Shown here: piece after piece, positions 7,655-22,618 of the stretch
Layout: the number at the start of each line of letters is the position of its first letter
Numbering within the stretch: the stretch's first letter is position 1
Source: Planctomycetota bacterium
GTDB taxonomy: Bacteria; Planctomycetota; B129-G9; JAJDCN01
Reading direction: 5' to 3'
Assembly: GCA_029260815.1 (NCBI GenBank)
Contig: JAJDCN010000269.1
Location: forward strand, 1 to 33,177
DNA: 33,177 nt
Position numbers and translations under genes: made by a program
Notes under the pieces: generated by a model
Told to the model about the DNA's origin: nothing
The model's database searches: none
What the model saw: the letters and a program-made list of their open reading frames with translations, nothing else

Positions 7655-8763
7655 TCGTGCCCCTCCTCTGAGATCTGGATCATGAACGTCAGCCATGAGT
7701 CGGTTCGGAGTAACAGTGCATTGAGCTGCCGATCGGATAAACCCGTTTCCAGTTGATGAACCCGATTGAGAAACTGGACGTATTCCACGAGCGCCTTGGT
7801 ATCGCTATCGAGGAAATCGCTCAGAGGTTCGTGGTTGATTTCTCGACATACATAGAGGATGCGTGCTCGCCTGGTGGGTTTGCCTTCATGGAGCAGTTCC
7901 GGATGCTTGCCGGAAAGCCAGGGAATCACATTCTCGTCCGAAGCCAGGCTCCGGAGCAGGTGGCCCCACAGTTCCCGCAAGGAGGCCAGAACGTGACGCC
8001 CGCGATCAATGCCACCGCCAGACAGGGCCTCTCTTGCGCCCTGATATGCCTTGGCCAGTGCGGGATTGACCCGGCTCAGCAAATCGAAGACGCCTGACGT
8101 TTCCTCACGCACATCGGCCAGCACAGATGCTTGTTCGTCATCAGCATCTTCCGCATCATCTGGCCATAGCTCCATGACCGCACGTCCAGTGACCAGCACC
8201 TCACGACTCGCACTCGGTAGCACGAAGGATGGCAACGCTGTCAACTTCGGGAGGCTTTCGACGGCAAGCGCGAGTCTGTCGAAACCGGATGTGAGATTTT
8301 CGAATCGCCCCTGAAGCTGCGCGACGATGTCGTCTTGAAATTTGAATGCGTTTCGAATCCTATCGAAGTCGATTCTGGTGCTGAACGTTTCGGCGATAGT
8401 CGCCATTTGCGATGCCGACGTGAGCGCCAATTTTGCGGATGCTTGAATATGGCTGAGGCGGTCCGCGCTGGCCTGGACATTGCGCATCCAACTGGCATGG
8501 ACCCGGGCCAGATTATCTATCCCTCGCGTGTCGATCTTGATCTTGTCGAAGGAGGTCAGCATCCGCTGGTTGGCCTGAGCGATTTCCTGCATGCGCGTGA
8601 CAACACCACTCACCTTCAATTGCTCGGCCAGGGCAAGGTGGCTGCGGCGGAACGGCTCCAGAGCCTTTTCCATTTGCTGAAACGAATCGAGATAGGCAGG
8701 CCGCAAGGCGCGGCTTGCCTGTTCGAGCTGTTTCTGCATTGCCAAGTAGGACGACGTACTCAT
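7648..8763 (-). CDS. Coiled-coil protein with pPIWI-associated-nuclease-like C-terminus
   Basis: The 371-residue product has a long helical, glutamine- and alanine-rich N-terminal half (about 1-175) that looks like coiled coil, an acidic linker PDDAEDADDE (201-210), and a compact C-terminal domain (about 230-365). The latter has the pattern NPALAKAYQGAREAL, then RHVLASLRELWGHLLRSLA, then TRRARILYVCREI. I associate this pattern with the predicted pPIWI-associating nuclease family, with moderate confidence. No membrane segment is present. The gene is followed by the ATPase gene with a 7-base overlap, so both are made together. A long coiled coil plus an effector-like tail suggests a sensor or scaffold for the ATPase/PLD pair. 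Confidence 0.6.
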   Translation of the reverse strand: MSTSSYLAMQKQLEQASRALRPAYLDSFQQMEKALEPFRRSHLALAEQLKVSGVVTRMQEIAQANQRMLTSFDKIKIDTRGIDNLARVHASWMRNVQASADRLSHIQASAKLALTSASQMATIAETFSTRIDFDRIRNAFKFQDDIVAQLQGRFENLTSGFDRLALAVESLPKLTALPSFVLPSASREVLVTGRAVMELWPDDAEDADDEQASVLADVREETSGVFDLLSRVNPALAKAYQGAREALSGGGIDRGRHVLASLRELWGHLLRSLASDENVIPWLSGKHPELLHEGKPTRRARILYVCREINHEPLSDFLDSDTKALVEYVQFLNRVHQLETGLSDRQLNALLLRTDSWLTFMIQISEEGHEC

Positions 8764-8790
8764 GAGTTCATCAAGCCTCCGGTTTCCACA

Positions 8791-9045
8791 CTATCTTTTC
8801 TTCTTTCCCTTCTCCCGTTGAGAAAGGGTGCTCCCGGCAGCAGATTTTGATGCCTTGCTGGTGCGCCCGTCTCGCAACGTTTTCGATGCCGCACTGGCCG
8901 CTTTCGCCGACGAGGTCTTCTTTGGAGCCTTGCGCTGCGACAAGGCGCTTCCCGAAGATGTTTTCGTAGATTTGGCCGTGCTCTTGCTGCGCAGCGTTTT
9001 TGATGCGGACGAACCGGCCTTCTTTCCTGTAACTTTCTTACCCAT
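8791..9045 (-). CDS. Small lysine/serine-rich basic protein with two 25-residue repeats
   Basis: The start at 9045 is chosen because AAGGAG lies nine bases before this ATG; it gives 84 residues, while an upstream ATG at 9099 would run into hsdS. The protein is almost entirely Lys, Ser, Ala, Thr and Arg, with no aromatic residues. It holds two copies of a unit that begins ASKTLR and ends LSQR, at residues 14-38 and 53-77 (15 of 25 identical). Small proteins with this ASK-LR...K-AAGS-LSQR pattern are widespread; I know of no assigned role. The charge suggests nucleic acid or polyphosphate binding. It sits between hsdS and the coiled-coil gene in the operon. Confidence 0.65.
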   Translation of the reverse strand: MGKKVTGKKAGSSASKTLRSKSTAKSTKTSSGSALSQRKAPKKTSSAKAASAASKTLRDGRTSKASKSAAGSTLSQREKGKKKR

Positions 9046-9082
9046 GATCAATCTCCTTGTTCTTGGTGAGGTTATTGATGTC

Positions 9083-10951
9083 CTACGAATCCCCGGCACT
9101 CATTGGCGTCAGGAGCCCACATTCCCTAAGCCCCTCCAGTGTCGATCCGAGTTTCTCGTCTGAAAACTCGGTCCGGTCCAGCTTGGCTTGCCACTCTGGG
9201 TGCTTATCGATTTCAGTTTTGATGCTGGCAATCGAAAGGTCGCCATCTTCAGCCAGTATCGCTTCGGCGGCATGAAGTACGGTCGCCCAGCGTTCAAGCG
9301 CCTGCCATCCCCAATCCTTCATCTTCTCCAGCATCGCATCGATTTGGTCTTTGGCGGCCCCGAGCGTTTTCTCCGCCTGCGCCACGCCTTTTGCGACGTC
9401 TGCGCCTGGACGGACAGGCTTGAGACCGCCTTGCGCGCGCCCCAGAACCATCCACTTTTGTTTGCGAGCGAGGCTCAGAAACTTGTGGATCGCATCGTCA
9501 AGCGGCCCGGCCGCACGCTGCGCGAACTTTTCGGTCAGCGAAAGTTCCGCCTTGCGCTGAACCAGATAGAACAGCTTAGCCAGCTTGACGCGTCCCAGCG
9601 GGCGGTCATCGGCGTGACAGCGGTCCGTGATGTATGCTGCCAGCGCTGCCTTGTTGTACATGTCATGGCCGCCATGGCGTTTGTCGGACTTCTTGCTGCC
9701 TCCTGATTTAGGAGGATTGGCCTCAAGTGTTTTTGTCTGCTGCTCCATTTCCTGGAGCAACTCTTCCATTTGGGCCTCTCGCCATTTTGCAGTGAGAGAA
9801 CCGTTGAATGCGCGATAAAGAAGCACATCGAACAAGCGGTTAATTTTCTCGCAGGACCTGAATCGGCTTTCCTCTATCCCGACAAGCTGCTCTGCCTGTT
9901 CGTTGAACGTGGCTAATGTGCTAGGGGCAGGAATCGGCGTATCGAATGAGCCCAACTGGTTCTTGTTGAGCTTGGGTATCCGAAGACGGCCTGAGTGGAC
10001 CTTCGCATAAGCCAAGAAAGCTGGAGATCGCAAGAGTGCGATGAGATACCAGCGGGATATTCGTTCGTCTTTAGGCTCAAGAGGATAAATATCCGCACTA
10101 CAGACACCCTCGAAACCCGGGAAGGAGACCTTGTTAAGGTAGGGTCGAATCTTCGAGTAAAGAATGTGATTTGGTGAAAACCAAAACTTGCTGCTCTTGA
10201 GGGCGCTGTCTCTCACCAGCTGAGGAGAGAGAATTCGCCCCGTGTCCTTCTCGATGTGCTCGCCGCCGACGTGGGGAAGGTTCTCGTATTCAGGACAATT
10301 CGGATCGACCAACCGTGTGCCGATCTCAACCAAGGAATCGAAGCGCTCTGTATCCCATCCGTTCGGATTTGTCGCCAGGTCACCGAACATTTTGCAGAAC
10401 AGTGCAGGCAGGATGCGCGCGGCTTTGGTGTCGGCCTCGGTGCGCTTCTTTCGAAGTGCTTCTGCTTGATCAAGAATTTCGACGATACGATCTTGTTCGG
10501 ACCTTGGCAGCCAGGGAATCTCCACGTCATAGACATTCTTGTCGGTGACTGCTGGGTAGTTCGCTCCACGCACATGCTGAAGAAGAGTATTGATAAATTG
10601 CTTCGTCCGGACGAAGAAGAAAAGAAGCCGTGGATGAAGAACCGACTCCATTGCCCTAAGCACGCAAAAACCCGTAGATGCTATTTCACCGCCAAGTTCA
10701 CTGGGCACCATCGCCACGGCATTGAGATTGGGGCGAACGGTAGAAACGACTACGTCGTTAGCTTCAACCACTTGTCGTGCCCGACTGGGAGCATCGCTGC
10801 CAAGAAGCTCTGCCGTTGAGGCAATGCACTTCTGTTCTCTATCGATACCGGAGATGTCTATGTATCGAAATGATGAATCCGGACTAAGGCGAGGATCCGT
10901 CTTTCGCGCCCGGGTACAGAGAGCGCCGATTCTAGCTGTGGGCCACGTCAT
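9083..10951 (-). CDS. hsdS: Type I restriction-modification specificity subunit HsdS with C-terminal extension
   Basis: HsdS reads the DNA target and bridges HsdM and HsdR. The 622-residue product has the expected layout: target recognition domain 1 (about 1-150), a conserved helical spacer with QDRIVEILDQAEALRKK (153-169), target recognition domain 2 (about 200-345) and a second conserved helix ending SLTAKWR (385-391). It then continues for about 230 residues, roughly twice the usual tail. The extra part contains a glutamine-rich helix, a Ser/Lys linker and a domain from about 431 (PLGRVKLAKLFYLVQRKAEL) that faintly resembles SocA/Panacea-type antitoxin domains. The ATG overlaps the hsdM stop as ATGA. 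Met431 could serve as an internal start for the tail alone. Confidence 0.9.
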   Translation of the reverse strand: MTWPTARIGALCTRARKTDPRLSPDSSFRYIDISGIDREQKCIASTAELLGSDAPSRARQVVEANDVVVSTVRPNLNAVAMVPSELGGEIASTGFCVLRAMESVLHPRLLFFFVRTKQFINTLLQHVRGANYPAVTDKNVYDVEIPWLPRSEQDRIVEILDQAEALRKKRTEADTKAARILPALFCKMFGDLATNPNGWDTERFDSLVEIGTRLVDPNCPEYENLPHVGGEHIEKDTGRILSPQLVRDSALKSSKFWFSPNHILYSKIRPYLNKVSFPGFEGVCSADIYPLEPKDERISRWYLIALLRSPAFLAYAKVHSGRLRIPKLNKNQLGSFDTPIPAPSTLATFNEQAEQLVGIEESRFRSCEKINRLFDVLLYRAFNGSLTAKWREAQMEELLQEMEQQTKTLEANPPKSGGSKKSDKRHGGHDMYNKAALAAYITDRCHADDRPLGRVKLAKLFYLVQRKAELSLTEKFAQRAAGPLDDAIHKFLSLARKQKWMVLGRAQGGLKPVRPGADVAKGVAQAEKTLGAAKDQIDAMLEKMKDWGWQALERWATVLHAAEAILAEDGDLSIASIKTEIDKHPEWQAKLDRTEFSDEKLGSTLEGLRECGLLTPMSAGDS

Positions 10952-12618
10952 TCTAATTCCTCAACTTTCAGCAAGATCGAATCAAGTCCTTCAACGATAG
11001 CTTGCTCGTCTTCCCGGAGTGAGTTGATCAGATCAATAGGATCGTCGTCCGGCGCAGAGGTCCCGATGGTTGGCTTGTAACGACTTGCAGCCAAGTTGTA
11101 ATCGTTCTCGCCAATTCGCCTGATGGTTGCCCACCAGCATCGCGGTAAATCACTGCCCGCTTGCAGCACCGAGTTCGCCTCAATGCCCGGCGCCTTCTTG
11201 AAGCTCGACTTCTTGTACTCGGCCCACTGCGCAAGCAAGTTCGGAAGGTCATTACGCTCTGGCGTTTCGGGGCGGCCGCCCCCCGAGACCTTATCGGGGT
11301 CATAACCGTCGATCCGGACGTCGTAAAACCAGACCTTTCCCTTCTGCTTAGACTTCTTGTCAGGCTTGGCGTCTTTGGGCGGTCGACGGAACACAAGTAC
11401 CCCGGTTTTGACACCCGCGTAGGGTTTGAAAACCCCGGCGGGCAGGGAGACGACGGCTAAAAGGTCGTAATCTTCGACGATCTTGCGTCGAAGCTCGACA
11501 TGGGCTGACGTGGACCCGAACAGAAGCCCCTCGGGCACGACCACCGCACATCGCCCGCCAGGAGCAAGTGCCTCCATCATCACCCCGAGAAATAGCAGTT
11601 CACTCTTCTTCGAGTTGGTCGGTAGGTCATTGCGGATGGATTCCTTTGGTAACTGCCCGGCGAATGGCGGATTCGAGAGGATGACCTTGTACTTGCGGGC
11701 AAGGTCGTCTTCGGTCAGACCGCCCATGTCGGAAAGCGTGTTGCCTCGTTTTACATTGGCCTTGCGAATGCCGTGAAGGACCAGGTTCATCATGGAGATG
11801 CGCATCATCTGGCGCGATACGTCGATTCCGAAGATCGACCGTTCAAGGATGCCCCAATCAGGAATCTTCTCGCCCGGTCCCTTGCGATAGGTCTGTAGTG
11901 TCGGGATTTCCTTGCGCGCCTCCTCAAGGCTCTGATTGCGCTTTTCTAACCACTCTTCGCCGTATATGGGAACTTCCTGTGGTTCGGTGGAGTACTTGGC
12001 CAGGATGTATTCCACCGCATCGATCAGGAATCCGCCCGTACCGCAAGCTGGGTCATAGACGGTGTCGCCGAGGTCAGGATCGACCATCTCGACCATCATG
12101 GTGCGGATCTGTCGCGGTGTGCGAAACTGGCCGTTCAAAGCCGACTGACCAAGATGGGTGAGCATGTACTCGAAGATATCGCCCTTGACGTCCGTTCCAA
12201 GTTTGGCGAATTCGATATTGTCGATTTCATCCACAACCTGTTTGAGAACATTGGGGTCCACGATTTCAAGCACTGCATCACGGAAGTATTCAGCGATCTG
12301 CGGCACTTCCTTCACCAGCGATGCCATGTATGGAAATACTTCATCCCGGATGAAGTCTCGCAGTTCCGTTCCGCTCTTGAACCGCCACTTGGTCCAGCGA
12401 TAGCGTTCGGATTGCTTGGGAAAAAGGCGTTTACCGTTCCCGTTGCTCGTCTTGCCCGTTAGCCTGGCTTGCAGCTCGCGGGTGGCCTCTTCCTCATCGA
12501 GCAACTTGAGATAGATCAGGTAGGAGATCTGCTCGATGTAGGTGACCGGGTTGGTGACACCGCCTGCCCAGAGGATGTCCGTAATCCGGTTCAGTTTCCT
12601 TCTCAAATCCTGGTTCAT
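10948..12618 (-). CDS. hsdM: Type I restriction-modification DNA methyltransferase subunit HsdM
   Basis: A 556-residue N6-adenine methyltransferase. It has the HsdM N-terminal helical domain (about 5-155), the SAM-binding motif I DPACGTGGFL (189-198) and the catalytic motif IV NPPF (316-319). The length is normal for the family. It methylates the target adenines chosen by HsdS and so protects host DNA. The start follows AAGGA with six bases of spacing and comes nine bases after the hsdR stop; the end overlaps hsdS by four bases. All key residues are present, so methylation should be active. If the operon is inducible, as the sigma54 promoter suggests, methylation and restriction would be induced together. 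Confidence 0.95.
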   Translation of the reverse strand: MNQDLRRKLNRITDILWAGGVTNPVTYIEQISYLIYLKLLDEEEATRELQARLTGKTSNGNGKRLFPKQSERYRWTKWRFKSGTELRDFIRDEVFPYMASLVKEVPQIAEYFRDAVLEIVDPNVLKQVVDEIDNIEFAKLGTDVKGDIFEYMLTHLGQSALNGQFRTPRQIRTMMVEMVDPDLGDTVYDPACGTGGFLIDAVEYILAKYSTEPQEVPIYGEEWLEKRNQSLEEARKEIPTLQTYRKGPGEKIPDWGILERSIFGIDVSRQMMRISMMNLVLHGIRKANVKRGNTLSDMGGLTEDDLARKYKVILSNPPFAGQLPKESIRNDLPTNSKKSELLFLGVMMEALAPGGRCAVVVPEGLLFGSTSAHVELRRKIVEDYDLLAVVSLPAGVFKPYAGVKTGVLVFRRPPKDAKPDKKSKQKGKVWFYDVRIDGYDPDKVSGGGRPETPERNDLPNLLAQWAEYKKSSFKKAPGIEANSVLQAGSDLPRCWWATIRRIGENDYNLAASRYKPTIGTSAPDDDPIDLINSLREDEQAIVEGLDSILLKVEELE

Positions 12619-12627
12619 TTCGATTCC

Positions 12628-14829
12628 TTATGCACTCTTCTTGAAGACCGATTCGTTCAGGTCCTCGACGATGTCTTTAAGCCCTTTTTCGCCGAACAGT
12701 TCGACGCCTAACTCGGCTGCGTTCAAGATCGACAGCGGCGGCTGGAACAGGTCTTCAAGTTCGATCCGGCCTCTAGCAATTCCACGATTCTTCAACAGCG
12801 AAAGATACTGCGCCTGCTGCGGGGTTATCGATTTCGCCACAAGCCATGCCTGGAAGTTCTCCGTCAGTTCTTCATCGCGACTCTTAATCTTGAGGTTTCC
12901 AAGAGCGGCCTTGATAAAGTCGATCAGGTTTCCACCGGGTTGCTGGTAGGCGCGCCGAAGGTTTTCCTCATTGAAATACATCTCGGGGCGGTTCAATCGG
13001 TCGGCGAGAGCCTGTTCTTCGTTCTCATCCAACAGTTCCCCGTCACGGACTTTCTTAATGACGGGATCGTCTTTTGCAGAAGATTGAACCGCCTTCTGCC
13101 AGTTGGTGATGTAATCCTTTTTGTCCACGCGCTCGCCATCCTTGCCAACCTCAACGTAGGTGACCGCATGAAGCCACTCATCCTGCAGTCCCAACTCGAC
13201 AAGATCGCGCCGCTCACCGGGAGGCTTGCGCGTGCCGCCAGGCGCGACACCGCTACCAGCACCCGTGAAGATGTCGGTGTCGCTGTCGTTGAAATACTCG
13301 TGGTTGCCGAAGAAGTCGTAGATGACGAATTTCTTCTTATCGATGTGTGGGGCGGTGCGGGTTCCACGACCGCGCATCTGCTGATAGAGAATCGGGCTTC
13401 GGACACGGCGGCACATGACGAGGTGGAGCACCTCGCGGCAGTCAAACCCGGTATCCAGCATTCCGACACTGACCGCGACCTGGGGATAGTCTTCGCGTTT
13501 GAATTTCCGGATGAGGTCGTCCGCGTTGGCCACATCACTCGTGATAACCTCCGCGTACTGCCCCTTCAGATCAGGATGGAGTTCATTCAAGTAGTTGGCG
13601 AGGCGGGCAGCATGGTGTTTGGTAATGGCAAAGACAATGGTCTTGCCTGGGCCAACCTTCTGACCTGGCGCAAGTTCCTGATAACTCTTCCATGCCAAGC
13701 GGTCGAATTCCTGGATCATCTTCTTGTTCGAGTCTTCATTCGTCCATTCGCGCTCGAATTTAGCAGGGTCGTAGGATTCGTCCTCGACTTCCGTGCCTTC
13801 CGCGAGCAGAACGGTGATCCCTGTGGCGAATTTGTAGGGCGCTAAATAGCCGCTCTTAAACGCCTCCTGAATTGGAAAAGCAAAATCAGGCTGGCCATCC
13901 TTACACTGATAGAATTGAAACGTGTTCCTTTCTATGTAGGCCGAAGGCGTTGCTGTTAATCCGATGTGCAAGGCGTCGAAATGCGTGAGTGCGGTCTGCC
14001 ATGAGCCGTAAATTGATCGATGCGATTCGTCAACAACGACGACATCAAAGTAGCCGCTGGTGAATTCCGTATAGCGGCTGACCATGGTTTGGAGCAGGCA
14101 AACTGTGATCTGCTGCTCCTGACGCGCCATGCCAGGGCGAAGCCAATAACTACCGTGTTGATTCAGCACATCCTGGAACGCCTCAAGAGCCTGCTTGGCC
14201 AGCTGCTCACGGTCAACAAGGAACAGCACCCGTTCAGCGCGCCCTGCCTGGATCAATCGCTTTATATACAGGCAGGTCAGGTCTGTTTTTCCCGTGCCCG
14301 TTGGAAGCTCGATAAGAAAACGCCGTTTGCCAAGTTCGATGGCGTGATCCAGCGCTTGCATGGCCTCCCGTTGATAGGAGCGAACCTGTCGGTCTTCTCC
14401 CTGGCGCAGGTAGTACTCAGGGATATCGACTGACGCAAGCGGCTTGCGCGTGGCTCGCATCTCGACGAGGCGCTCAAGGTCACGTCTGGAGAAAAACGAG
14501 TTGACGATTCGAGCATCATCGTTCGTGTAGTCCCAGAAGTAGATCAGTTCGCCATTCGTTAGAAAAATGAACGGTGCGCCGATCTTCTTCGCGTAGGGAA
14601 GAGCTTGCTGCTTCGCCGTATAAGGTTCGATGGCGGAGCGCTTCGCTTCGAGGATAGCTAACGGGCGACCGTTTCTTGCCATCAACATGTAATCAGCACG
14701 CCCGCCATCCGGAGTCGTCAGCTCAGTAGCCACCTGCGATTTGTCAGACGGTTCCCATCCGGCCTGTTTCAGCAGGTCGTCGATCACGATTCTTGCATCG
14801 GCTTCAGTCGAATGGTCCTTCACGGGCAT
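12628..14829 (-). CDS. hsdR: Type I restriction enzyme HsdR (EcoEI-like DEAD-box helicase-nuclease)
   Basis: The 733-residue motor and endonuclease subunit has an N-terminal PD-(D/E)xK domain with Asp46 (GGRADYML) and Glu61-Ala-Lys63. Next come a superfamily 2 helicase core with Walker A LPTGTGKT (175-182) and motif II VVVDESHRS (264-272), a second RecA-like domain ending QQMRGRGTR, and a C-terminal helical region of the EcoEI type. It translocates DNA and cleaves it far from unmethylated HsdS targets. The ATG at 14829 follows AGGAGA and lies 18 bases after the SNase-fold gene. All catalytic motifs look intact. It is the second gene after the sigma54 promoter, which is unusual because hsd genes are more often transcribed from sigma70 promoters. 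Confidence 0.93.
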   Translation of the reverse strand: MPVKDHSTEADARIVIDDLLKQAGWEPSDKSQVATELTTPDGGRADYMLMARNGRPLAILEAKRSAIEPYTAKQQALPYAKKIGAPFIFLTNGELIYFWDYTNDDARIVNSFFSRRDLERLVEMRATRKPLASVDIPEYYLRQGEDRQVRSYQREAMQALDHAIELGKRRFLIELPTGTGKTDLTCLYIKRLIQAGRAERVLFLVDREQLAKQALEAFQDVLNQHGSYWLRPGMARQEQQITVCLLQTMVSRYTEFTSGYFDVVVVDESHRSIYGSWQTALTHFDALHIGLTATPSAYIERNTFQFYQCKDGQPDFAFPIQEAFKSGYLAPYKFATGITVLLAEGTEVEDESYDPAKFEREWTNEDSNKKMIQEFDRLAWKSYQELAPGQKVGPGKTIVFAITKHHAARLANYLNELHPDLKGQYAEVITSDVANADDLIRKFKREDYPQVAVSVGMLDTGFDCREVLHLVMCRRVRSPILYQQMRGRGTRTAPHIDKKKFVIYDFFGNHEYFNDSDTDIFTGAGSGVAPGGTRKPPGERRDLVELGLQDEWLHAVTYVEVGKDGERVDKKDYITNWQKAVQSSAKDDPVIKKVRDGELLDENEEQALADRLNRPEMYFNEENLRRAYQQPGGNLIDFIKAALGNLKIKSRDEELTENFQAWLVAKSITPQQAQYLSLLKNRGIARGRIELEDLFQPPLSILNAAELGVELFGEKGLKDIVEDLNESVFKKSA

Positions 14830-14847
14830 GCTCTCCTGATTCTCAAA

Positions 14848-15132
14848 TCACTTGTACGCTGGAAAGTAATCCGCCAGGTACTTGCCTTTGAAGTACACGT
14901 CACAGACGAGCCTGCCGCGATCCACCTTGTGGGCGGTGCGGAGGTCAACCTGTTCACCCAGGATCAGGCGGGTGAGCTTTTCCTTAGCGGCCTGCCCACC
15001 GGCGGCGTGAAGTTCCGGGGCGTCAAACCCAGTAGGGCGAACCCGCGTTCCTGATTGCCCTTCCCACTTCCATCCACCGCTAACCTCAAACGTGTCGCCA
15101 TCGATGATCAAACTAACCGTAAACTGTGCCAT
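14848..15132 (-). CDS. SNase-fold (thermonuclease-like) nuclease, apparently cytoplasmic
   Basis: A 94-residue staphylococcal-nuclease-fold protein. The start at 15132 is chosen over an upstream one because AAGGAG is placed well before it, and the extra residues would cover the sigma54 promoter region. Key residues line up with staphylococcal nuclease: IIDGDT with Asp11 and Asp13, Arg32 (for Arg35), Asp37 and Glu40 in GFDAPE (for Asp40 and Glu43), and Arg74 in DRGRL (for Arg87). The enzyme is therefore expected to be active on DNA or RNA. There is no signal peptide or membrane segment, unlike most secreted thermonucleases. It is the first gene after the sigma54 promoter, so it would be made first on induction; a toxic or nucleic-acid-degrading effector role is inferred. 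Confidence 0.8.
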   Translation of the reverse strand: MAQFTVSLIIDGDTFEVSGGWKWEGQSGTRVRPTGFDAPELHAAGGQAAKEKLTRLILGEQVDLRTAHKVDRGRLVCDVYFKGKYLADYFPAYK

Positions 15133-15180
15133 AATCGAATCTCCTTTCTTGCTTCGGACCAAGTTCTGGCAAGCAAGAAA

Positions 15181-15196
15181 CGCAAGGTGCGTGCCA
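15181..15196 (-). promoter_or_regulatory. Sigma54 (RpoN) -24/-12 promoter of the SNase-hsdRMS operon
   Basis: Read on the minus strand, the site is TGGCAC, five bases, then TTGCG. It matches the sigma54 consensus TGGCAC-N5-TTGC at every conserved position, with the GG and GC the required distance apart. The predicted start of transcription is about 12 bases further on, near 15170, leaving a leader of about 38 bases before the SNase ATG at 15132. It lies directly downstream of the gene for a sigma54-dependent activator (15296-16804), which is the strongest support for its function. Confidence 0.8.
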
Positions 15197-15209
15197 AAGA
15201 CGTCAGTCG

Positions 15210-15227
15210 CGCACAATTGTCTGTGCG
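15210..15227. promoter_or_regulatory. Inverted repeat CGCACA-N6-TGTGCG just upstream of the sigma54 promoter
   Basis: A perfect 6+6 bp dyad with a six-base spacer (ATTGTC) lies 14 bases upstream of the -24 element. It could be the site for the Fis-type DNA-binding domain of the activator, although enhancers are usually about 100 bases further upstream. It may instead bind a repressor. The assignment is inferred from position and symmetry alone. Confidence 0.35.
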
Positions 15228-15295
15228 GCCAGGCCTTATGGCATTTCGCTTCGTCATGGTCATTTTTCGCTCTTTCAACCCAGGCTTCAAAATCT

Positions 15296-16804
15296 TCAAC
15301 TTCGGTTGTAGTCGTCTGACTTTTTCATGAACTTGCTGACGGCTTGCGGGGTCATCCCCAGCAGACGCGCAGCCTCGCTTTGGTTGCCACCCGCGATTTC
15401 GACCGCGCGCAGGATCAACTGCTTTCGCGCGCTACTCAGAAATTCATCCAGCGCGAATCCAGGCTGCGGTTCGGGCAGGGTGTCGAGCGGATCGGCGTAG
15501 CTCACTGGTTCCGAGATGAGCAGATCGTCTGCCGCTAGGACGGAATCACGGCTCAAACGAACGGAACGCTCAATAACGTTTTCGAGATCGCGGACGTTGC
15601 CCGGCCACGCGTGGCTTTGAAGCCGCGCCAGCGCTTCTTGAGAAAGGCGTCGGGGTGAGCGCATCGTGGCATTGACTCGGTCGAGGACATGCAGGGCAAG
15701 TTTCGGAATGTCGGACCGGCGTTCACGAAGCGGTGGCAGAATCACTTCGCCCACGTTCAGACGGTAATAGAGATCCTCTCTGAACTTCTCCTTCTTGATT
15801 GATTGCGCAACATCGCGATTGGTCGCGGCGACGATGCGCACATTGACCTGATGAGGCTTTGGTTCACCAATTGATTCAACCATTCCGTCCTGAAGAACCC
15901 GGAGCAGTTTCGCCTGCATCGGCATGGGTAGCTCTGCAACTTCATCAAGGAAGAGCGTTCCTCCATCCGCCAGATCGAACTTCCCAGTCTGGTTTGAAGT
16001 CGCCCCAGTGAATGCGCCCTTCTTGTGGCCGAACAAAATGCTCTCGACCAAGTCCGGAGGAATGGCCGCACAGTTCAGAGCAACGAAGATGTCAGAAGGG
16101 CGACCGCTCAGGCGATGGACAAGTCGAGCAAGAAGTTCTTTTCCGGTGCCGGTTTCCCCGCGAATGAGTATCGGCGCGTCGGAGGACGCGAGGGTTCCCG
16201 CCATTTCTAAAGCCGCATTCATGGCTGGATGATCGCCAACGATTCCCAATTGGCGGATCGCCACATTCAAATCAGGAGGCGTTTCGGGTGCCGCTTCAAT
16301 CTCTGTTGTGGTTGCGCGGACGGAGGGGAATTCGTTTGCAGTGAGATCGACCTCGCCGACAAGCGGCCTGTCCTTCGTGACAAACCGGGGTGGTCGAACG
16401 TGCAGGAGTTTTGCAGGAATTTCGCCACTCGCGGCAAGGAGCACCCAGCATGCATGCATCTGTGGGGTTCCGGAGGCGACAGCGATAGAAAAGGATGCTT
16501 CTGGATGCTCTTCAGCGAGTTCTCGGATGTGCCTGCGGAGCGCACGGAAGATTGCAGCGTAGTCGGTGGGGTCTTCGAGGGAGACATTTCTGATCTCGAC
16601 CTCGACGCCGGAACCGCGCTTTTCGATCTCCGCTTTGGTTTCGGTTGTCCGGTCTTCTGTGTTGGGCGTGGCGAAGAGAACGACTCGCTCGAATGTACGT
16701 GCGGACACAAGCGACAGGATCGGACCAAGCTGCTCCTCTTGGCCGACCAGCCCTTTGGAATACGGGTCGTGGAACCCTGTGAATGTGAGTAGTACGTCCG
16801 TCAT
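15296..16804 (-). CDS. CARF-domain sigma54-dependent transcriptional activator (RtcR-like)
   Basis: A 502-residue bacterial enhancer-binding protein. Residues 1 to about 155 form a CARF/Rossmann-type sensor domain: a beta strand DVLLTFTGF, VVLFATP (41-47) and the typical CARF loop VASGTPQMHA (109-118). Next comes the AAA+ domain with Walker A GETGTGKE (216-223), the sigma54-contacting loop GAFTGA (263-268) and Walker B GGTLFLDEV (281-289). A Fis-type helix-turn-helix closes the protein (about 465-498). RtcR, the known relative, uses its CARF domain to sense RNA damage products and activates rtcBA; here the downstream target is a restriction operon. CARF domains generally bind cyclic oligonucleotides or RNA ends. 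The ATG overlaps the stop of the small HTH gene (ATGA), so the two are co-expressed. The domain assignment is firm; the ligand is unknown. Confidence 0.88.
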   Translation of the reverse strand: MTDVLLTFTGFHDPYSKGLVGQEEQLGPILSLVSARTFERVVLFATPNTEDRTTETKAEIEKRGSGVEVEIRNVSLEDPTDYAAIFRALRRHIRELAEEHPEASFSIAVASGTPQMHACWVLLAASGEIPAKLLHVRPPRFVTKDRPLVGEVDLTANEFPSVRATTTEIEAAPETPPDLNVAIRQLGIVGDHPAMNAALEMAGTLASSDAPILIRGETGTGKELLARLVHRLSGRPSDIFVALNCAAIPPDLVESILFGHKKGAFTGATSNQTGKFDLADGGTLFLDEVAELPMPMQAKLLRVLQDGMVESIGEPKPHQVNVRIVAATNRDVAQSIKKEKFREDLYYRLNVGEVILPPLRERRSDIPKLALHVLDRVNATMRSPRRLSQEALARLQSHAWPGNVRDLENVIERSVRLSRDSVLAADDLLISEPVSYADPLDTLPEPQPGFALDEFLSSARKQLILRAVEIAGGNQSEAARLLGMTPQAVSKFMKKSDDYNRS

Positions 16805-17013
16805 TGATCCTGCCTTCGCGGTTCATCGCCAAGAAGGTGCTCGGGGTGACCCTTCAGCCATTCGTCGATGGAGTCCTTGTGGAATCGCCACCGCTTCCCG
16901 ACCTTCTGGCCGGGCATGCCGCCGTCCTGGACCAACTTGTAGAGCGTGGACTTGGAAATCTTCAGGTAGTCCGCCAACTCTTCGATGGTCATGACCTCGT
17001 CCGGTCCGGCCAT
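16801..17013 (-). CDS. Small excisionase-family (HTH_17) DNA-binding protein
   Basis: The 70-residue product is one MerR/excisionase-type winged helix: EELADYLKISKSTLYKLV (11-28), then a wing with GQKVGKRWRF (35-44) and a closing helix DSIDEWL (47-53). Such proteins bind short operators as repressors or recruit recombinases. The ATG at 17013 follows AGGAGG with an eight-base spacer. It comes first in the regulator operon, behind a sigma70-like promoter with a repeated GATAATA motif, which suggests autoregulation. The stop overlaps the CARF-sigma54 gene start by four bases. Excision activity is unlikely, since no integrase is present nearby. Confidence 0.8.
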   Translation of the reverse strand: MAGPDEVMTIEELADYLKISKSTLYKLVQDGGMPGQKVGKRWRFHKDSIDEWLKGHPEHLLGDEPRRQDQ

Positions 17014-17056
17014 GCGCCATACCTCCTGGTGGAATCGGGAATTTGCATAAGCGGGT

Positions 17057-17084
17057 ATTATCAGATATTATCGAATGTTGTCAA
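17057..17084 (-). promoter_or_regulatory. Sigma70-like promoter of the HTH/CARF-sigma54 regulator genes
   Basis: On the minus strand TTGACA (17084-17079) and GATAAT (17062-17057) are separated by 16 bases; a slightly shifted TAATAC would give 18. The heptamer GATAATA occurs twice, three bases apart, across the -10 region, and could form an operator for the small HTH protein. The distance to the ATG at 17013 is about 40 bases. Confidence 0.55.
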
Positions 17085-17201
17085 GAACAACCTACGGGTG
17101 CAAGAAGTCGAAGCGAAGATAAGCTGAAGGAATTCTGAAGGTTGCGTGGGGTATTGCCGAGCTTCTTGCCCTCGCCCGGCCGCGAGAGGCATACAATATA
17201 G

Positions 17202-17386
17202 AATGCGCTGGTCCGAAAACGAACATTCAGGACACAGCGCATCGCTCATTGAAAACTGAATAGACGACATTATTGGCTTCGCCGAGCGACTTTGACCGAA
17301 TCATGGCGCACGGTGACCACGAAGTCAATGGTCGCTCGAAGAAAGACCTAGGCGGCTTTTCTGTAGTAATGCTTGAGTAAACCGGG
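17202..17386 (-). mobile_element. 3' end relic of the same insertion-sequence type as at 4173-4604
   Basis: The segment begins with AATGCGCTGGTCCGAAAA, identical to the left end of the relic at 4173, and ends in the last codons of a transposase on the minus strand (17348-17386), which read GLLKHYYRKAA and stop. Upstream of this tail the frame is closed at once and the sequence is unrelated, so the rest of the element has been lost. It has the same orientation as the other relic. The two lie about 13 kb apart, on either side of the restriction/defence operon. Confidence 0.55.
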
Positions 17387-17655
17387 CTACGGCAAAAGTT
17401 GCTCTGGTCGTGGCTTATGCCGTAGCCAGCCGGATCTTTCCCCAGAAAGCTTCACGAAGCTGTAACGTTACTAATCCTGTCCTCGCTACGAACCATATCG
17501 GGGTCTTACACTTGCAGAGCAAAGGCTAAGAATCGAACCTTGCTTCCGATAACCGTCCAAGTGAGGCTCGCCTTTAAGGTGTCTTGTAAGTTCTTATTCA
17601 ACATTGGAAGCGCTTCGTTTGCACACCTCTCGTTAACGATCATGGTGATCATTGC
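17387..17655. other. Intergenic stretch between the transposon relic and the dNTPase-like gene
   Basis: I see no convincing gene here. The sequence holds several short frames with poor composition and a 5 bp stem (GATCA-TGG-TGATC) just beyond the stop of the dNTPase-like gene, without a T-run. It may include eroded transposon sequence. Confidence 0.4.
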
Positions 17656-19293
17656 TCAGACGTCCTGCACGTCTAGGAAGTAGCGTTCCCAAGAGGCGTG
17701 CTGGGGCGCAAACAGCGCGGTATGAGTCGCAATTGCCTCATCATCTGTTAGCCACGCAACATAATCAGCAGCAAGGCGCTGCGAAGTCAACTTTGAATCG
17801 TCACCCCACCGCTCTCTGTTGTAGTTGTCATACCTCTTTTGAGCTTTTCTCTCAATACTACGAGAGTTGTTGCCACGCCCCACATAAAACCAAAACAATT
17901 CACGTATAATGCGCGTTGCGGCCACCTGCCTTGCCGCCAAAGCTGGATGCACGTATTGCTCAATGATATCCATCCTCACCTTATCGATGATCCCTGTCCG
18001 TGTATACTCAGACTTGTGCTCCTCGAAATGAAAGCCTGTCTCACAGAACTGAAGTCGTCGGCTGTCAGAAGGCAGATTTCTCTGTGACGTCGGTGCGTTA
18101 GCAAGTTTGAATATCGCACGCCTGTGATCCTTCTCCTTCTCCCCCCCCTTCTCCCAAGCATCCCAATTGAGAATCCCAGCCTCGAATGCATCATTCAGGT
18201 CTGAGTTGACAAAGCAGATGTTGTCCGCAGTGCGCACTACAAACGCCTCTCGTGTTTCATCCTTTTTGCGCAATGTCATGGAGCCCCCGCGATAAACGTT
18301 TGGGGCCTTAAGCATGAAACTCTCGTATGCCCCGCGCCACGAGTGCGACAGAATCCCATATGCCGTTTGTCGTGTTACATCAGCGTTCTGCTTTTTGGGA
18401 TTGCACAAGAGTATACGTAGACCGTGTACGTAGTGTGCAAACAGTTCACCCATGCCTTTCTGAACCCAAAACTCGGTCTCCAAGTCATTCGGATATGGTG
18501 GCAGACCTTCCCACTCAAGAGGCTCATGAAACGCACACTTGCCATTGTCTACCAATAGTATATTCTTGCATCCAAGCTCGTCGAACAGCGGTTGCCCCAG
18601 TAGCCTCTGAACGTCACTCTCCATTGGCAGCTCAGTTTCATGACGGCGAGGATCTTTCATGGCAAGCCATTGGACTAAGTGCCATATGGCAGCGTCCTTG
18701 TGTTTATGCTGTGCCTTTCTCTTCTTGGCCTTCTCTTTCCCACCAGTAAGCCCGCCAATCTCTGGACCACCCGGGAGATTGATACAAAGACGGATGAAGA
18801 GCTCATATAAGCACAGGTTAAGAGCTGCTTCACCTGTATGTCCAAAAGGCGTATGGCCGATATCGTGCCCATATGCTATTGCTTCAGTTAAATCAACGTT
18901 GAGACCATTCTTGTGCGCAATACTCCGACTCAATTGGACGACATCAAGAGTATGTATAAGGCGGTTTCTATAGACCGTTCTCCCTGGACCTGTGAACACT
19001 TGAGTCTTCCCTGCAAGGCGGACGAAATTGGGGTTGAACAGAATCTGATCCCGGTCAATATCAAAATGTGTTCGGCCACCGGGCCACCCATCCTCGTCGG
19101 CATTCGACTCGATGAGCTTCGTGTTCTTTACGCGCGTTGCGCTCGTATACCTATAACCCAATGCCCTTCTTGTCTCGCCTTCAGGGCTAAAGTGGCAAGC
19201 ACGCGCGTCCATGTTCTTGTCGGCGATCTCCGACGCTTGTTTCAAAGCTCCTCGAGCTTTCTCTGTACTCTCAGTCACCGAACACCCTCCCAT
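17656..19293 (-). CDS. dGTPase-like HD-domain deoxynucleotide triphosphohydrolase
   Basis: The 545-residue protein belongs to the Dgt/SAMHD1-like HD group, which removes triphosphate from dNTPs. The metal ligands can be followed: His114 in RLIHTLDVVQ, the HD pair His143-Asp144 in YGHDIGHTPFGH, and the distal Asp358 in RTADNICFVNSD. The active-site helper histidines 147 and 152 are also present. A lysine-rich insert (about 180-275, with KEKAKKRKAQHKHK at 187-200) is not typical and may regulate oligomerisation or bind nucleic acid. It is the last of four overlapping genes; its ATG lies 19 bases inside the HIT-family gene. An eight-base G tract occurs in its coding strand (18141-18148). The family is known in phage defence and in phage nucleotide-pool remodelling. 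The substrate is not determined. Confidence 0.85.
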   Translation of the reverse strand: MGGCSVTESTEKARGALKQASEIADKNMDARACHFSPEGETRRALGYRYTSATRVKNTKLIESNADEDGWPGGRTHFDIDRDQILFNPNFVRLAGKTQVFTGPGRTVYRNRLIHTLDVVQLSRSIAHKNGLNVDLTEAIAYGHDIGHTPFGHTGEAALNLCLYELFIRLCINLPGGPEIGGLTGGKEKAKKRKAQHKHKDAAIWHLVQWLAMKDPRRHETELPMESDVQRLLGQPLFDELGCKNILLVDNGKCAFHEPLEWEGLPPYPNDLETEFWVQKGMGELFAHYVHGLRILLCNPKKQNADVTRQTAYGILSHSWRGAYESFMLKAPNVYRGGSMTLRKKDETREAFVVRTADNICFVNSDLNDAFEAGILNWDAWEKGGEKEKDHRRAIFKLANAPTSQRNLPSDSRRLQFCETGFHFEEHKSEYTRTGIIDKVRMDIIEQYVHPALAARQVAATRIIRELFWFYVGRGNNSRSIERKAQKRYDNYNRERWGDDSKLTSQRLAADYVAWLTDDEAIATHTALFAPQHASWERYFLDVQDV

Positions 19294-19982
19294 ATGCCCT
19301 TCACCGACAGTAACAACTCCCGCTGAGGAGTCTCCATCGTTGCGCCCGGACGCATAGTCCCTCCGAATGCGCGCTCAAGAACGTTAACACTTTGTTGAAT
19401 GTTCTCGCGACACGGATACCTTCTCCAATCCCACATGCTACACTTGTCTTCCGCCACACTTAGTACCTGTCGCAGAAACTGTCGCGGTATCACCGTGTTG
19501 ATCGGATATAGGTCATATGTAGTGTCTTCGCCTTCCGAACCAACAAGAAGGTATCCGAACTCATCGTGCTCGGCCAAGTTCAGCAAATGGCAGCGCGCCG
19601 CAATGGGAAAAGGGAGCAATGACCGAAAGCGCTCTGGGGACTTGCAAGGAGCGACGTGCACGTGCGTGTGCTGGATACAACACCCCCCCGTTATATGACG
19701 GCTCTTACCTGGTCCGTGTTCAAAGACAATGCTCGGGCCGTATGCGCAGTTGATCGCATCACGCGTCAGTTGGACTACGTGGTTAAGCTCTTCCAGCAAC
19801 TCGCGGTCGAGAGATCTTGCACAGGAGCAGTGATGCTTAGAGACAACCATGAGCCAGCCTTGTATGAACTGGCCGAGCGTCGGCATCACCACAAAGTTTC
19901 TCGTCTCATATAAAGGGGTGTTCTCAATCCGCTGCGATCCAGCGTGGGTTAGGGCCTGACAAAGGGGACATGGGTCAATCAT
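19275..19982 (-). CDS. HIT-superfamily nucleotide hydrolase/transferase-like protein
   Basis: The 235-residue product has the histidine-triad motif CIQHTHVHVAP (His105, His107, His109), which in HIT enzymes attacks the alpha-phosphate of a nucleotide. A zinc-site-like CPLC lies at residues 5-8, and Cys102 directly precedes the motif. At 235 residues it is longer than simple HIT hydrolases, closer to the GalT/ApaH-like branches; the C-terminal 100 residues are unassigned. The start follows AAGGAAG and overlaps the stop of the upstream TGT-like gene by eight bases. The context suggests action on a modified or activated nucleotide produced by the neighbouring kinase-like and base-exchange proteins. 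Nucleotidylyl hydrolysis or transfer are both possible. Confidence 0.8.
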   Translation of the reverse strand: MIDPCPLCQALTHAGSQRIENTPLYETRNFVVMPTLGQFIQGWLMVVSKHHCSCARSLDRELLEELNHVVQLTRDAINCAYGPSIVFEHGPGKSRHITGGCCIQHTHVHVAPCKSPERFRSLLPFPIAARCHLLNLAEHDEFGYLLVGSEGEDTTYDLYPINTVIPRQFLRQVLSVAEDKCSMWDWRRYPCRENIQQSVNVLERAFGGTMRPGATMETPQRELLLSVKGIWEGVR

Positions 19983-20790
19983 GCTTTTTTGATCTTCCTT
20001 CTAATGCGGCTTCTATCAATGCAGATAAGCGTGATGCCCTTGCTTGAAACTCTATAGGTGCTGCTACTGAGTCGCTCATCTTGAGCGGTGCAACATATGT
20101 ACTGAAAGGATCTTCTCCGGTGTACGCATATCGATGTAGAAAAGTGGAATCAAGACTTCGAACAGAGCCATGAGAGCCCAGCATTCGGAGTTCGAGCAAG
20201 AACTCTCTACCAGCACCAAGCAAATGCACGTCAATACGTGGATACCGGCGCTTGAGCTCTGCAGCGATCTCTATTCTGAATTCGGGCCTTCCGTTGCTGC
20301 ATCTGGCGGAGAACAGGCGCGGTATACCCACAGTGCAACTACCTACTTGTTGGATCAGCTTGTGTGCGTTCTCGGCCCACTCTACGTACGATGTTCCATG
20401 CGGAACGATCATTAGCTGTGGCCTTCTGTCGTTCGGCAGTCGGGACCAGGCTCGTATGAAATCTCTCGTTCTCAACAGACTTTTGCTTGGGTCATTGGGA
20501 CAATCAGAGCAAACGACTTCCTGTACACCAAGGTCAATAGCAAGATCAAGAAGCTCGATGTCGGTGAGTTCCGCGCTTTCTGTTCCGATCGAGACTTCTA
20601 AGGCTCCGGAATCCAGTGTAGTAAATACAGATTGTGACCTCTTAGCACAATAGTCGGCATATTGATGTGAGCGAAGCGCCAGCGGGGCCAGAAACATCTC
20701 CATGTCGCTATGAGGCGACAACACGTCTACCGTCGCAAGGCTTCCAACATGCGCAAACTTTATGTTTCTGGCAGTAGCAACCCTAGCCAT
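19975..20790 (-). CDS. TGT/DpdA-like base-exchange (transglycosylase) protein
   Basis: The 271-residue protein reads as a tRNA-guanine-transglycosylase-like TIM barrel of the small phage DpdA type. Recognisable pieces are TTLDSGALE with Asp60 (compare the catalytic DSG of TGT), LGVQEVVCSDCPND (87-100), LMIVPHGTSYVEW (126-138), VGIPRLF (154-160), VHLLGAG (188-194) and SLDSTF with Asp214, in the place of the nucleophilic aspartate. The usual C-terminal zinc site of tRNA TGT is absent. TGT enzymes swap guanine for a 7-deazaguanine; DpdA proteins do this in DNA. No preQ0 synthesis genes are present in the window. The ATG follows GAGGA and overlaps the ThiL-like gene by eight bases. The fold is likely; the substrate is unknown. 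Confidence 0.65.
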   Translation of the reverse strand: MARVATARNIKFAHVGSLATVDVLSPHSDMEMFLAPLALRSHQYADYCAKRSQSVFTTLDSGALEVSIGTESAELTDIELLDLAIDLGVQEVVCSDCPNDPSKSLLRTRDFIRAWSRLPNDRRPQLMIVPHGTSYVEWAENAHKLIQQVGSCTVGIPRLFSARCSNGRPEFRIEIAAELKRRYPRIDVHLLGAGREFLLELRMLGSHGSVRSLDSTFLHRYAYTGEDPFSTYVAPLKMSDSVAAPIEFQARASRLSALIEAALEGRSKKHD

Positions 20791-21889
20791 GGAGAAAGTC
20801 CTCTATGCTCTTTGACATCATATCTTCCACATGTCTCTTTACGTCCCCCCCCCAAAACGAACCAGGACTAAACTGGTAACCACCAAGTAAGGAGGATGCT
20901 TTCTTGGTAACGCACTGTCCGTCGACGATTATCTTGCCGTGTCCGCTCACCACTTCACCGAGAACCACGAGTTCGCTGCCAATTGTTTCTAGTGCGGCTT
21001 TAGCAGCTACTACAGCATCTCTATCAGCCGAACATAAGAGATGGCATGTTCCCCAACTCAATGCCCAAGCACGTGCGTCAGAATTGCAAGCAGCTGCTAC
21101 CTCATGAATCTCATGCGCAACAATGTCGTCTTCGAGAGAGATAACAGCATCAACGTCTGATAATGCTACTAAGTCCAGCGCGCAGGCGAGAAGACCATCG
21201 GAGGTGTCCATGCAGAATCTGGGCGGCGCTTTCTCCAACAGAATCTGGCCTTGTTCGACCTTTGCTGTGGGTGTAAGCGCCATGCTACGGACTCTGGATA
21301 GTAGGTCTTCTGAAAGAGTAGAGCATTTGCCCTTTCGTTCCTGGGTTGCTATCCCTGCCCAAAATCCGCCAAAGTCAGCCCTGTCTACAACAAAAAGCAT
21401 GTCACCCGGGCAAGCAGCTCCTCTGAGCAACGCTTGCTTTGTTCTTGTGGCACCAACAGCACATGAGACGGCGTGTGACCTCTCTCTTGCCTCTCTGATA
21501 TTGCCGCCAAGCAATGCCGTCCCGTGAGCAGAAGAACATGCAACCACCCCATTGAAAAACGAATCGAAAGTCTGGATCGCGGTCTGTCTTGGAAAATCAA
21601 CTGTTACAACTACCCCTAAAGGAGAAGCTCCCATTGACGCAAGGTCTGATAGAGATTTGACAACGCAGAGCCAGCCTGCATGATAGTAATCGCCCATGCC
21701 AAGTCGCTGAACTAGATTGGGAATGGGGCAAGGGTCAGTCGTGATCCATGTTGTCTCCCCGCGAGTGGATGTTTGCAGGCAAGCTGAATCATCAAGCATG
21801 AGCTCGGGGCCACCGTGCTCGGCCACAATGTCTCTTATCCTGTAAATCAGCTCGCGCTCGCCAAAATCCTCAAGAATTTGGGCTGTCAC
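20783..21889 (-). CDS. ThiL/PurM-fold ATP-dependent kinase-like protein (AIR synthase-related)
   Basis: The 368-residue protein opens like ThiL with GERELIYRIRD (10-20) and has the metal-binding pair Asp33-Asp34 (LDDSA), TTDP (50-53), KSLSDLASMGASP (78-90) and DTSDGLLA (228-235). These mark the PurM/ThiL ATP-binding fold, used to phosphorylate a phosphate ester or activate an amide. Where ThiL has GGDT, this protein has GGNI (128-131), so the substrate is probably not thiamine phosphate. Start: GTG at 21889 after GAGGGGGAT. It leads the four-gene overlapping cluster. A run of nine G in the coding strand (20845-20853), near codon 347, is a possible slippage site that would change the last 20 residues and the coupling to the next gene. 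Confidence 0.78.
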   Translation of the reverse strand: MTAQILEDFGERELIYRIRDIVAEHGGPELMLDDSACLQTSTRGETTWITTDPCPIPNLVQRLGMGDYYHAGWLCVVKSLSDLASMGASPLGVVVTVDFPRQTAIQTFDSFFNGVVACSSAHGTALLGGNIREARERSHAVSCAVGATRTKQALLRGAACPGDMLFVVDRADFGGFWAGIATQERKGKCSTLSEDLLSRVRSMALTPTAKVEQGQILLEKAPPRFCMDTSDGLLACALDLVALSDVDAVISLEDDIVAHEIHEVAAACNSDARAWALSWGTCHLLCSADRDAVVAAKAALETIGSELVVLGEVVSGHGKIIVDGQCVTKKASSLLGGYQFSPGSFWGGDVKRHVEDMMSKSIEDFLHG

Positions 21890-22618
21890 TTATCCCCCTC
21901 TTTTCAAGTGTTCACTTCTTTTTGGAGCAGAGGCCCTATGTAGTGACTGCAGGCTTATTATCCATTATTGGCCCGAGGATCGATCCCTTTTCACTCATTG
22001 GAGAACGTCCCAATGATTCCTTTGAGGTTCTTGGCAATATTCGGCCCGTTCTCTTCCTCTCCGAGAATTTCACAAAAGATTTTTCCGTGAACTCTCACAA
22101 TCTTTGTGGCTCAAAGATAACAGAGAGCTTTTGAGGTTTCAAGGCCAGATATCGTTGCCCCGAGCAGTTGCACTCCCTTTCCGTTGCGGTAAGGTTTGGC
22201 TGCAGAGGCTTGGCAGACAGGCGGTGCAATTGCTGAGTCTGGAGAATGCGCCTTGGTCCGGGAAGCTCCAGACGGTCTATTTCCTTGGCATTGCGTAACG
22301 CTTTTTTCACATGCCTTTATGTCTCCTCGCCACGCGAGTTGCCTAGAGTCCAGCTCGCGCCAATAGCATTCTATCTGGTGGATTCGAATTCTTGGTCCGA
22401 TAAGCCCTATTCTGTTATTGACTCATCAGAAAATTGCTTGTTTGCCTACGCCATGGGCAACTGCGATTGCGCTTTTTACACTGATTGCTTCCTCCGTTGA
22501 CTGCCGCTGCAATTAACCGCTAAAGGCTAAATAAGTAATGGTAGGATTCTGCTGGCCTGTGCCCAAAGATACTTGTGCAAAAAATCTCTATCTGCAAGGA
22601 GAGTTCGTTGTTTGCGCA
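21890..22618. other. Gene-poor intergenic region with a possible short ORF and a stem-loop
   Basis: This 729-base gap separates the nucleotide cluster from the protease-like array. A minus-strand frame (22095-22310, GTG start after AAAGG, 71 residues, rich in Leu, Gln and Arg) might be a small gene or an eroded one; I do not recognise it. Its end overlaps a perfect 7 bp stem-loop (22100-22118). An AAGTG-TT-CACTT dyad (21906-21917) precedes the ThiL-like ribosome binding site and could be an operator. A weak stem followed by a T-run on the minus strand (about 22580-22606) may end the protease-like operon. Confidence 0.4.

Follow-up and report, generated by a model that had tools for sequence, protein, structure and literature searches.

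The stretch of DNA analysed here (the window) covers positions 1 to 33,177 of contig JAJDCN010000269.1 of a Planctomycetota bacterium, which is part of a draft genome of 352 contigs. It holds a cassette of four genes, encoding a ThiL-like, a TGT-like, a HIT and a dGTPase-like HD protein (Table 1). An earlier note on this DNA had described the genes as overlapping by 8, 8 and 19 bases and had assigned them to the ThiL/PurM-like, TGT/DpdA-like, HIT and dGTPase-like HD families. The overlaps were borne out, with all four open reading frames intact on the minus strand, and the family names hold up by library, profile and structure matches. Because the reading frames are long and overlapping, and each has conserved catalytic motifs and remote homologues, the four genes are not a product of chance. 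It follows from the overlaps that they are predicted to form one operon, transcribed as a unit. Ordinary QueC, TGT and ThiL genes of the host lie elsewhere, each on a contig other than that of the window, so the cassette genes are extra copies rather than housekeeping genes.

Table 1. Genes of the cassette and the adjoining intergenic regions (window positions; aa, amino acids; RM, restriction-modification)
Feature	Coordinates	Strand	Remarks
ThiL-like (AIR synthase/PurM fold) predicted phosphotransferase, 368 aa	20783..21889	-	GTG start; first gene of the operon
TGT/DpdA-fold predicted base-exchange enzyme, 271 aa	19975..20790	-	catalytic candidates D60, D96, D214
Extended HIT-domain nucleotide hydrolase/transferase, 235 aa	19275..19982	-	CPLC and HTHVH motifs; CWF19-like C-terminal extension
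dGTPase-type HD dNTP triphosphohydrolase, 545 aa	17656..19293	-	H114, H143-D144, D357 present
Upstream intergenic region	21890..22618	.	ribosome-binding site aaaagaggggg before GTG; weak sigma-70-like site 22142-22114
Downstream intergenic gap, cassette to next unit (regulator and type I RM)	17014..17655	.	

The TGT-like protein had no significant match by sequence or profile in Pfam, NCBIfam, PADLOC, PHROGs or the PDB. Since none of these sequence libraries matched it, the TGT fold is drawn from structure prediction only. The AlphaFold2 model (predicted template modelling score, pTM, of 0.78) adopts the (beta/alpha)8 TGT fold. Its best match among PDB structures was the TGT 4ghr (9e-8), with 2pot at 1.6e-6, and the best viral structural match was a protein of Cellulophaga phage phiST (TM 0.72). 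Three aspartates, D60, D96 and D214, are invariant both in an alignment of 10 diverse family members (A1) and in alignment A8. D60 and D214 are likely the two catalytic aspartates of TGT, an equivalence read from motif order rather than from residue-level superposition. The same motif order is found in phage 9g DpdA (LDSGAF ... CDSSSW set against LDSGAL ... LDSTF); the profile similarity to DpdA is weak. The zinc motif CxCxxC occurs in none of the 19 members of the TGT-like family and is carried by the canonical TGT of the host.

What company does this family keep elsewhere? The first relative, found by tblastn, lies on a Streptomyces chartreusis plasmid and adjoins QueD, QueE and FolE. The family was further traced to other Streptomyces plasmids, IMG/VR contigs, Micromonosporaceae genomes and phages of Bacillus, Weizmannia, Chryseobacterium, Cellulophaga, Flavobacterium, Vibrio and Campylobacter. 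Its members usually stand with QueD, QueE and FolE, QueC is also among the neighbours, and the cassette protein is nearest to phage proteins from 7-deazaguanine clusters. A small P-loop (deoxy)nucleotide-kinase-like gene lies beside or near the TGT-like gene at 12 of the 18 readable loci. It directly adjoins the TGT-like gene in all six of the named phages examined (BSP7, Youna2, MA9V-3, phi13:1, CP20 and D479) and in two IMG/VR contigs too, and four actinobacterial loci have a thymidylate-kinase-family gene no more than 2.4 kb away. The kinase-like neighbour in D479 matches Pfam DNMK and those at L016 and L025 match thymidylate kinase, whereas a Walker A motif is present in the BSP7 and Youna2 neighbours but their Pfam matches are only weak. 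MazG is present at five TGT-like loci. No P-loop kinase-like gene was seen near DpdA in 9g and CAjan, the control phages with DNA-level DpdA, which are few (n=2). The nucleotide-modification logic suggested in the earlier note gains substance: the TGT-like family is tied in phages to 7-deazaguanine synthesis and to nucleotide kinases.

Within the phylum, a TGT-like relative was found in none of the 391 other genomes. Its 10-member alignment varied too much to yield patterns for scanning. The scan of genome contigs used narrow patterns and recovered only four relatives, so absence elsewhere is weak evidence.

The fold and motif order of the TGT-like protein would also suit a divergent DpdA that inserts 7-deazaguanine into DNA (or RNA), the other three proteins then tailoring the base or cleaning up nucleotides. 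DpdA-type enzymes of bacterial Dpd islands mark host DNA, and the window lies in a defence island. However, neither DpdB nor DpdC was present among the window proteins scanned, PADLOC had no match for the TGT-like protein, the annotated window proteins include no QueD, QueE or FolE, and no dedicated preQ0 gene lies nearby. The cassette protein belongs to a sequence family separate from DpdA, and its relatives adjoin nucleotide kinases and MazG, unlike the enzymes of 9g and CAjan. The weak profile similarity to DpdA counts against this reading too, and we consider action on the polymer unlikely.

The actinobacterial relatives bring up another alternative, in which the cassette makes a nucleoside-like secondary metabolite of the 7-deazapurine type. 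These relatives are clustered with QueD and QueE, with further enzymes at L025. The cassette, by contrast, has no transporter, tailoring oxidoreductase or base-synthesis gene, its HD protein is of the dGTP-hydrolase type, and it sits beside restriction and other defence genes, all of which makes a metabolite quite improbable. The L025 cluster itself includes FAD-enzyme-like, thymidylate kinase and phosphoribosyltransferase-like genes, the last two names coming partly from reading the sequence.

Phages with complete guanine replacement bear on the idea of a base swap in free nucleotides. All dG of the Campylobacter phages CP220 and CPt10 is reported to be dADG (100%; PMC8306585). Such phages have been listed as lacking DpdA, with mention of a proposed route through a modified dGTP, and it was left open how phages of the CPt10/CP220 type replace every guanine by a 7-deazaguanine without a recognised DpdA (PMC6884629). 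We found members of the same TGT-like family as in the cassette in CPt10 and CP20, with the catalytic positions conserved in the alignment. In this uncharacterised family, guanine-replacing phages have a concrete candidate for an enzyme that swaps the base of free nucleotides. Its gene is phage-borne there, unlike the chromosomal cassette, and within the 10.6 kb examined no HIT, ThiL or HD gene stands beside it. At the CP20 locus (L014:4968-6328) the TGT-like gene is directly followed by a P-loop kinase-like gene, which makes the locus a candidate for the missing step in complete guanine replacement.

The HD protein matched the PADLOC dGTPase model (1.3e-45) as well as NCBIfam dGTPase models, and its best PDB relative was 2dqb (5.6e-27), with the motifs aligned. 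The H...HD...D metal site is intact (H114, H143, D144 and D357). A thymidylate-synthase-like stretch (residues 429-495; 0.0016, below the cut-off) overlaps the HD_assoc match and was taken as chance. The protein belongs to the same family as the anti-phage dGTPases but differs in its length of 545 amino acids with a divergent second half and in its place inside a four-gene operon. This kinship, together with the defence island, would fit plain dNTP depletion, in which the HD protein acts as effector while its three companions sense or regulate; anti-phage dGTPases are known. Those companions, however, look like catalytic enzymes and not like sensors, and known dGTPase defence is encoded by a single gene. 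We therefore regard simple depletion as very improbable.

The ThiL-like protein scored 2.8e-37 and 128 bits against NCBIfam thiL, below the curated cut-off of 184, and 4.5e-15 against Pfam AIRS. Its profile (A6) retrieved thiamine-monophosphate kinases from the PDB at 3e-27. It has the fold and most of the conserved positions of these kinases and a LDDSA motif, but carries GGNIR where ThiL carries GGD(T/V/S). The host's ordinary ThiL, which is retained, has the GGD motif.

The HIT protein was matched weakly in Pfam, and its profile (A7) matched 48 distinct PDB sequences, nearly all of them HIT or HIT-related (best 1.2e-9). The match to CWF19L1 covers positions 49-209, and the histidine triad HxHxH is present as HTHVH at 105-109. 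Strong matches of this HIT clade were found in 4 of the 392 genomes of the phylum. The GGNIR clade of ThiL occurs in three of the 392, all three among the four with the HIT clade (hypergeometric 4e-7). Besides the host, three genomes of the phylum (G306, G338 and G789) pair HIT with a ThiL/PurM-fold gene. The gene row in G306 and G338 is HIT, dCTP-deaminase-like, APH/TCAD9-like and ThiL-like. As in the cassette, HIT and GGNIR ThiL share one operon with a deoxynucleotide enzyme, whereas the dCTP-deaminase-like and APH/TCAD9-like genes take the place of TGT and HD. In G789 the HIT gene overlaps an AIR-synthase-fold gene, and the product of the latter resembles ordinary ThiL more than it does the GGNIR clade. 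A ThiL match in G144 was set aside for its different context. Scans of viral contigs for HIT and ThiL gave no match, nor did tblastn of HIT against phages, and the HIT profile had no match in 297 actinobacterial genomes, a set with no positive control.

This pairing raises the possibility that HIT and ThiL are central to a distinct pathway that makes a nucleotide derivative, such as an adenylylated or phosphorylated small molecule acting as a signal or toxin, with interchangeable helpers. The helpers do differ among the four genomes with the pair, being TGT and HD in the window and dCTP-deaminase-like and APH-like genes in two others, and GGNIR ThiL is restricted to genomes with the HIT clade. 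Against such a core, few genomes stand behind the pairing, the ThiL-like protein of G789 is nearer to the host's ordinary ThiL, and plasmid relatives of HIT adjoin other enzymes, namely cysteine desulfurase, dCTP-deaminase-like, thymidylate-kinase-like or thymidylate synthase genes. On balance it seems improbable.

Several other clusters contain HIT relatives. A three-gene unit of HIT, a small membrane-protein-like gene and a protein of about 800 amino acids occurs at L007:7001-10657, L051:182-3829 and L080:5629-9443, that is, on a Caulobacter plasmid and in two genomes of the phylum of the window. The large proteins are 25-29% identical, and the L007 copy has a MazG/PRA-PH-like domain. Two Streptomyces plasmid clusters (L006:6450-9746 and L009:6381-9681) hold dCTP-deaminase-like, HIT and cysteine desulfurase genes and one for an unknown 313-amino-acid protein, possibly a pathway for a sulfur-containing nucleotide; the L009 cluster is close to a phage portal gene. 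On a Rhizobium plasmid (L004:2173-9487), HIT stands with thymidylate-kinase-like, PRPP-synthetase-like, PfkB, cysteine desulfurase and glycosyltransferase-3 (TrpD-type) genes.

The earlier note had called for a search for co-occurrence of all four families. The complete set was found in the window only, and what recurs is the linkage of TGT-like genes with kinases and that of HIT with ThiL. Because the TGT family and the HIT and ThiL linkages recur separately, the window combines two modules, one of TGT and one of HIT and ThiL. We propose, tentatively and as somewhat short of probable, that the operon makes a purine deoxynucleotide whose base is modified while it is still a monomer. This proposal builds on what was observed, namely the gene layout, the folds, the conserved catalytic residues, the recurring partial linkages and the host's queuosine genes; from these we infer the reactions, their substrate level, their order and their purpose as follows. 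The TGT-fold enzyme would act on a (deoxy)guanosine nucleotide and replace its guanine with a 7-deazaguanine base, which the host queuosine pathway could supply. The ThiL-like enzyme would phosphorylate the base-exchanged product, and the HIT enzyme would contribute to the same route by hydrolysing or transferring a nucleotidyl group. Meanwhile, the HD enzyme would hydrolyse dGTP (or another dNTP that competes). The pathway would end in a modified dGTP analogue, put into host DNA or corrupting phage replication. A monomer-level group of transglycosylases, as proposed here, would have a nucleotide kinase and a dNTP hydrolase next to the enzyme. The window carries the HD dGTPase and the ThiL-like gene in place of MazG and the P-loop kinase, and by analogy these neighbours may correspond to the MazG and kinase genes found in phage clusters.

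Several observations weigh against this monomer-level pathway. The full four-gene set was seen at no locus besides the window, and no HIT or HD gene was seen at any of the TGT-like loci gathered, whether in phages, on plasmids or in other genomes. The cassette is without preQ0-synthesis genes and without a P-loop kinase, and a role of ThiL as a nucleotide kinase is suggested only by analogy. HIT and ThiL occur together without TGT, so the two may serve a different chemistry. The substrate of the HD protein is not fixed by its sequence, as many dGTPase relatives take other dNTPs, and the match in CPt10 is weak when taken alone (5e-4). Finally, the DNA-acting phage DpdA is equally small and likewise without the zinc motif. 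The size of the TGT-like protein is therefore not indicative of the monomer level, the zinc motif marks no difference between the two, and small size with a missing zinc site was rejected as proof of a monomer substrate.

The logic proposed for the cassette is that of the Z-genome (2-aminoadenine) phages, in which PurZ, DatZ/MazZ and DpoZ combine a modified dNTP precursor with an HD or MazG enzyme that removes the normal competitor. The Z-genome pathway uses an adenylosuccinate-synthetase-type enzyme rather than the TGT-fold base swap proposed here, and it is phage-borne, whereas the cassette is on a bacterial chromosome, with no dedicated polymerase seen. A bacterial operon joining a TGT-like enzyme to a dGTPase would extend this logic from phages to cells, possibly in defence.

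A defence role for the cassette is plausible from its neighbourhood, which includes type I restriction genes, an RtcR-like CARF activator, a MAD1-like regulator, an NsnB-like ATPase and PDC-S34. Deazaguanine chemistry in defence has already been proposed for QatC and Cap9 (PMC13329287). The more specific idea is that the cassette is a chromosomal defence system in which bases are swapped on free nucleotides to give a 7-deaza-dGTP analogue, either toxic or marked, and dGTP is destroyed at the same time, with the uncharacterised monomer-level transglycosylase class of the guanine-replacing phages; we think it rather unlikely as a whole.

Trypsin-like-protease genes lie about 0.7 kb upstream of the cassette, and the next downstream unit is about 0.6 kb away. 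That unit (5987-17013, minus strand) is a defence unit with a MAD1-like helix-turn-helix protein, the RtcR-like CARF/sigma-54 activator, HsdR, HsdM, HsdS, a pPIWI-associated nuclease and the NsnB-like ATPase. A sigma-54-like site, TGGCACGCACCTTGCG, lies at 15181-15196 between the RtcR-like activator and the restriction genes. The best one-mismatch sigma-54 site on the strand of the cassette precedes the restriction genes, and the overall count of such sites is not above chance. Control of the cassette by the RtcR-like activator was rejected, as no sigma-54 site lies upstream of it. Further along the window, positions 1462-2304 encode a HAD-family protein that matches the PADLOC candidate defence family PDC-S34 at 4e-119.

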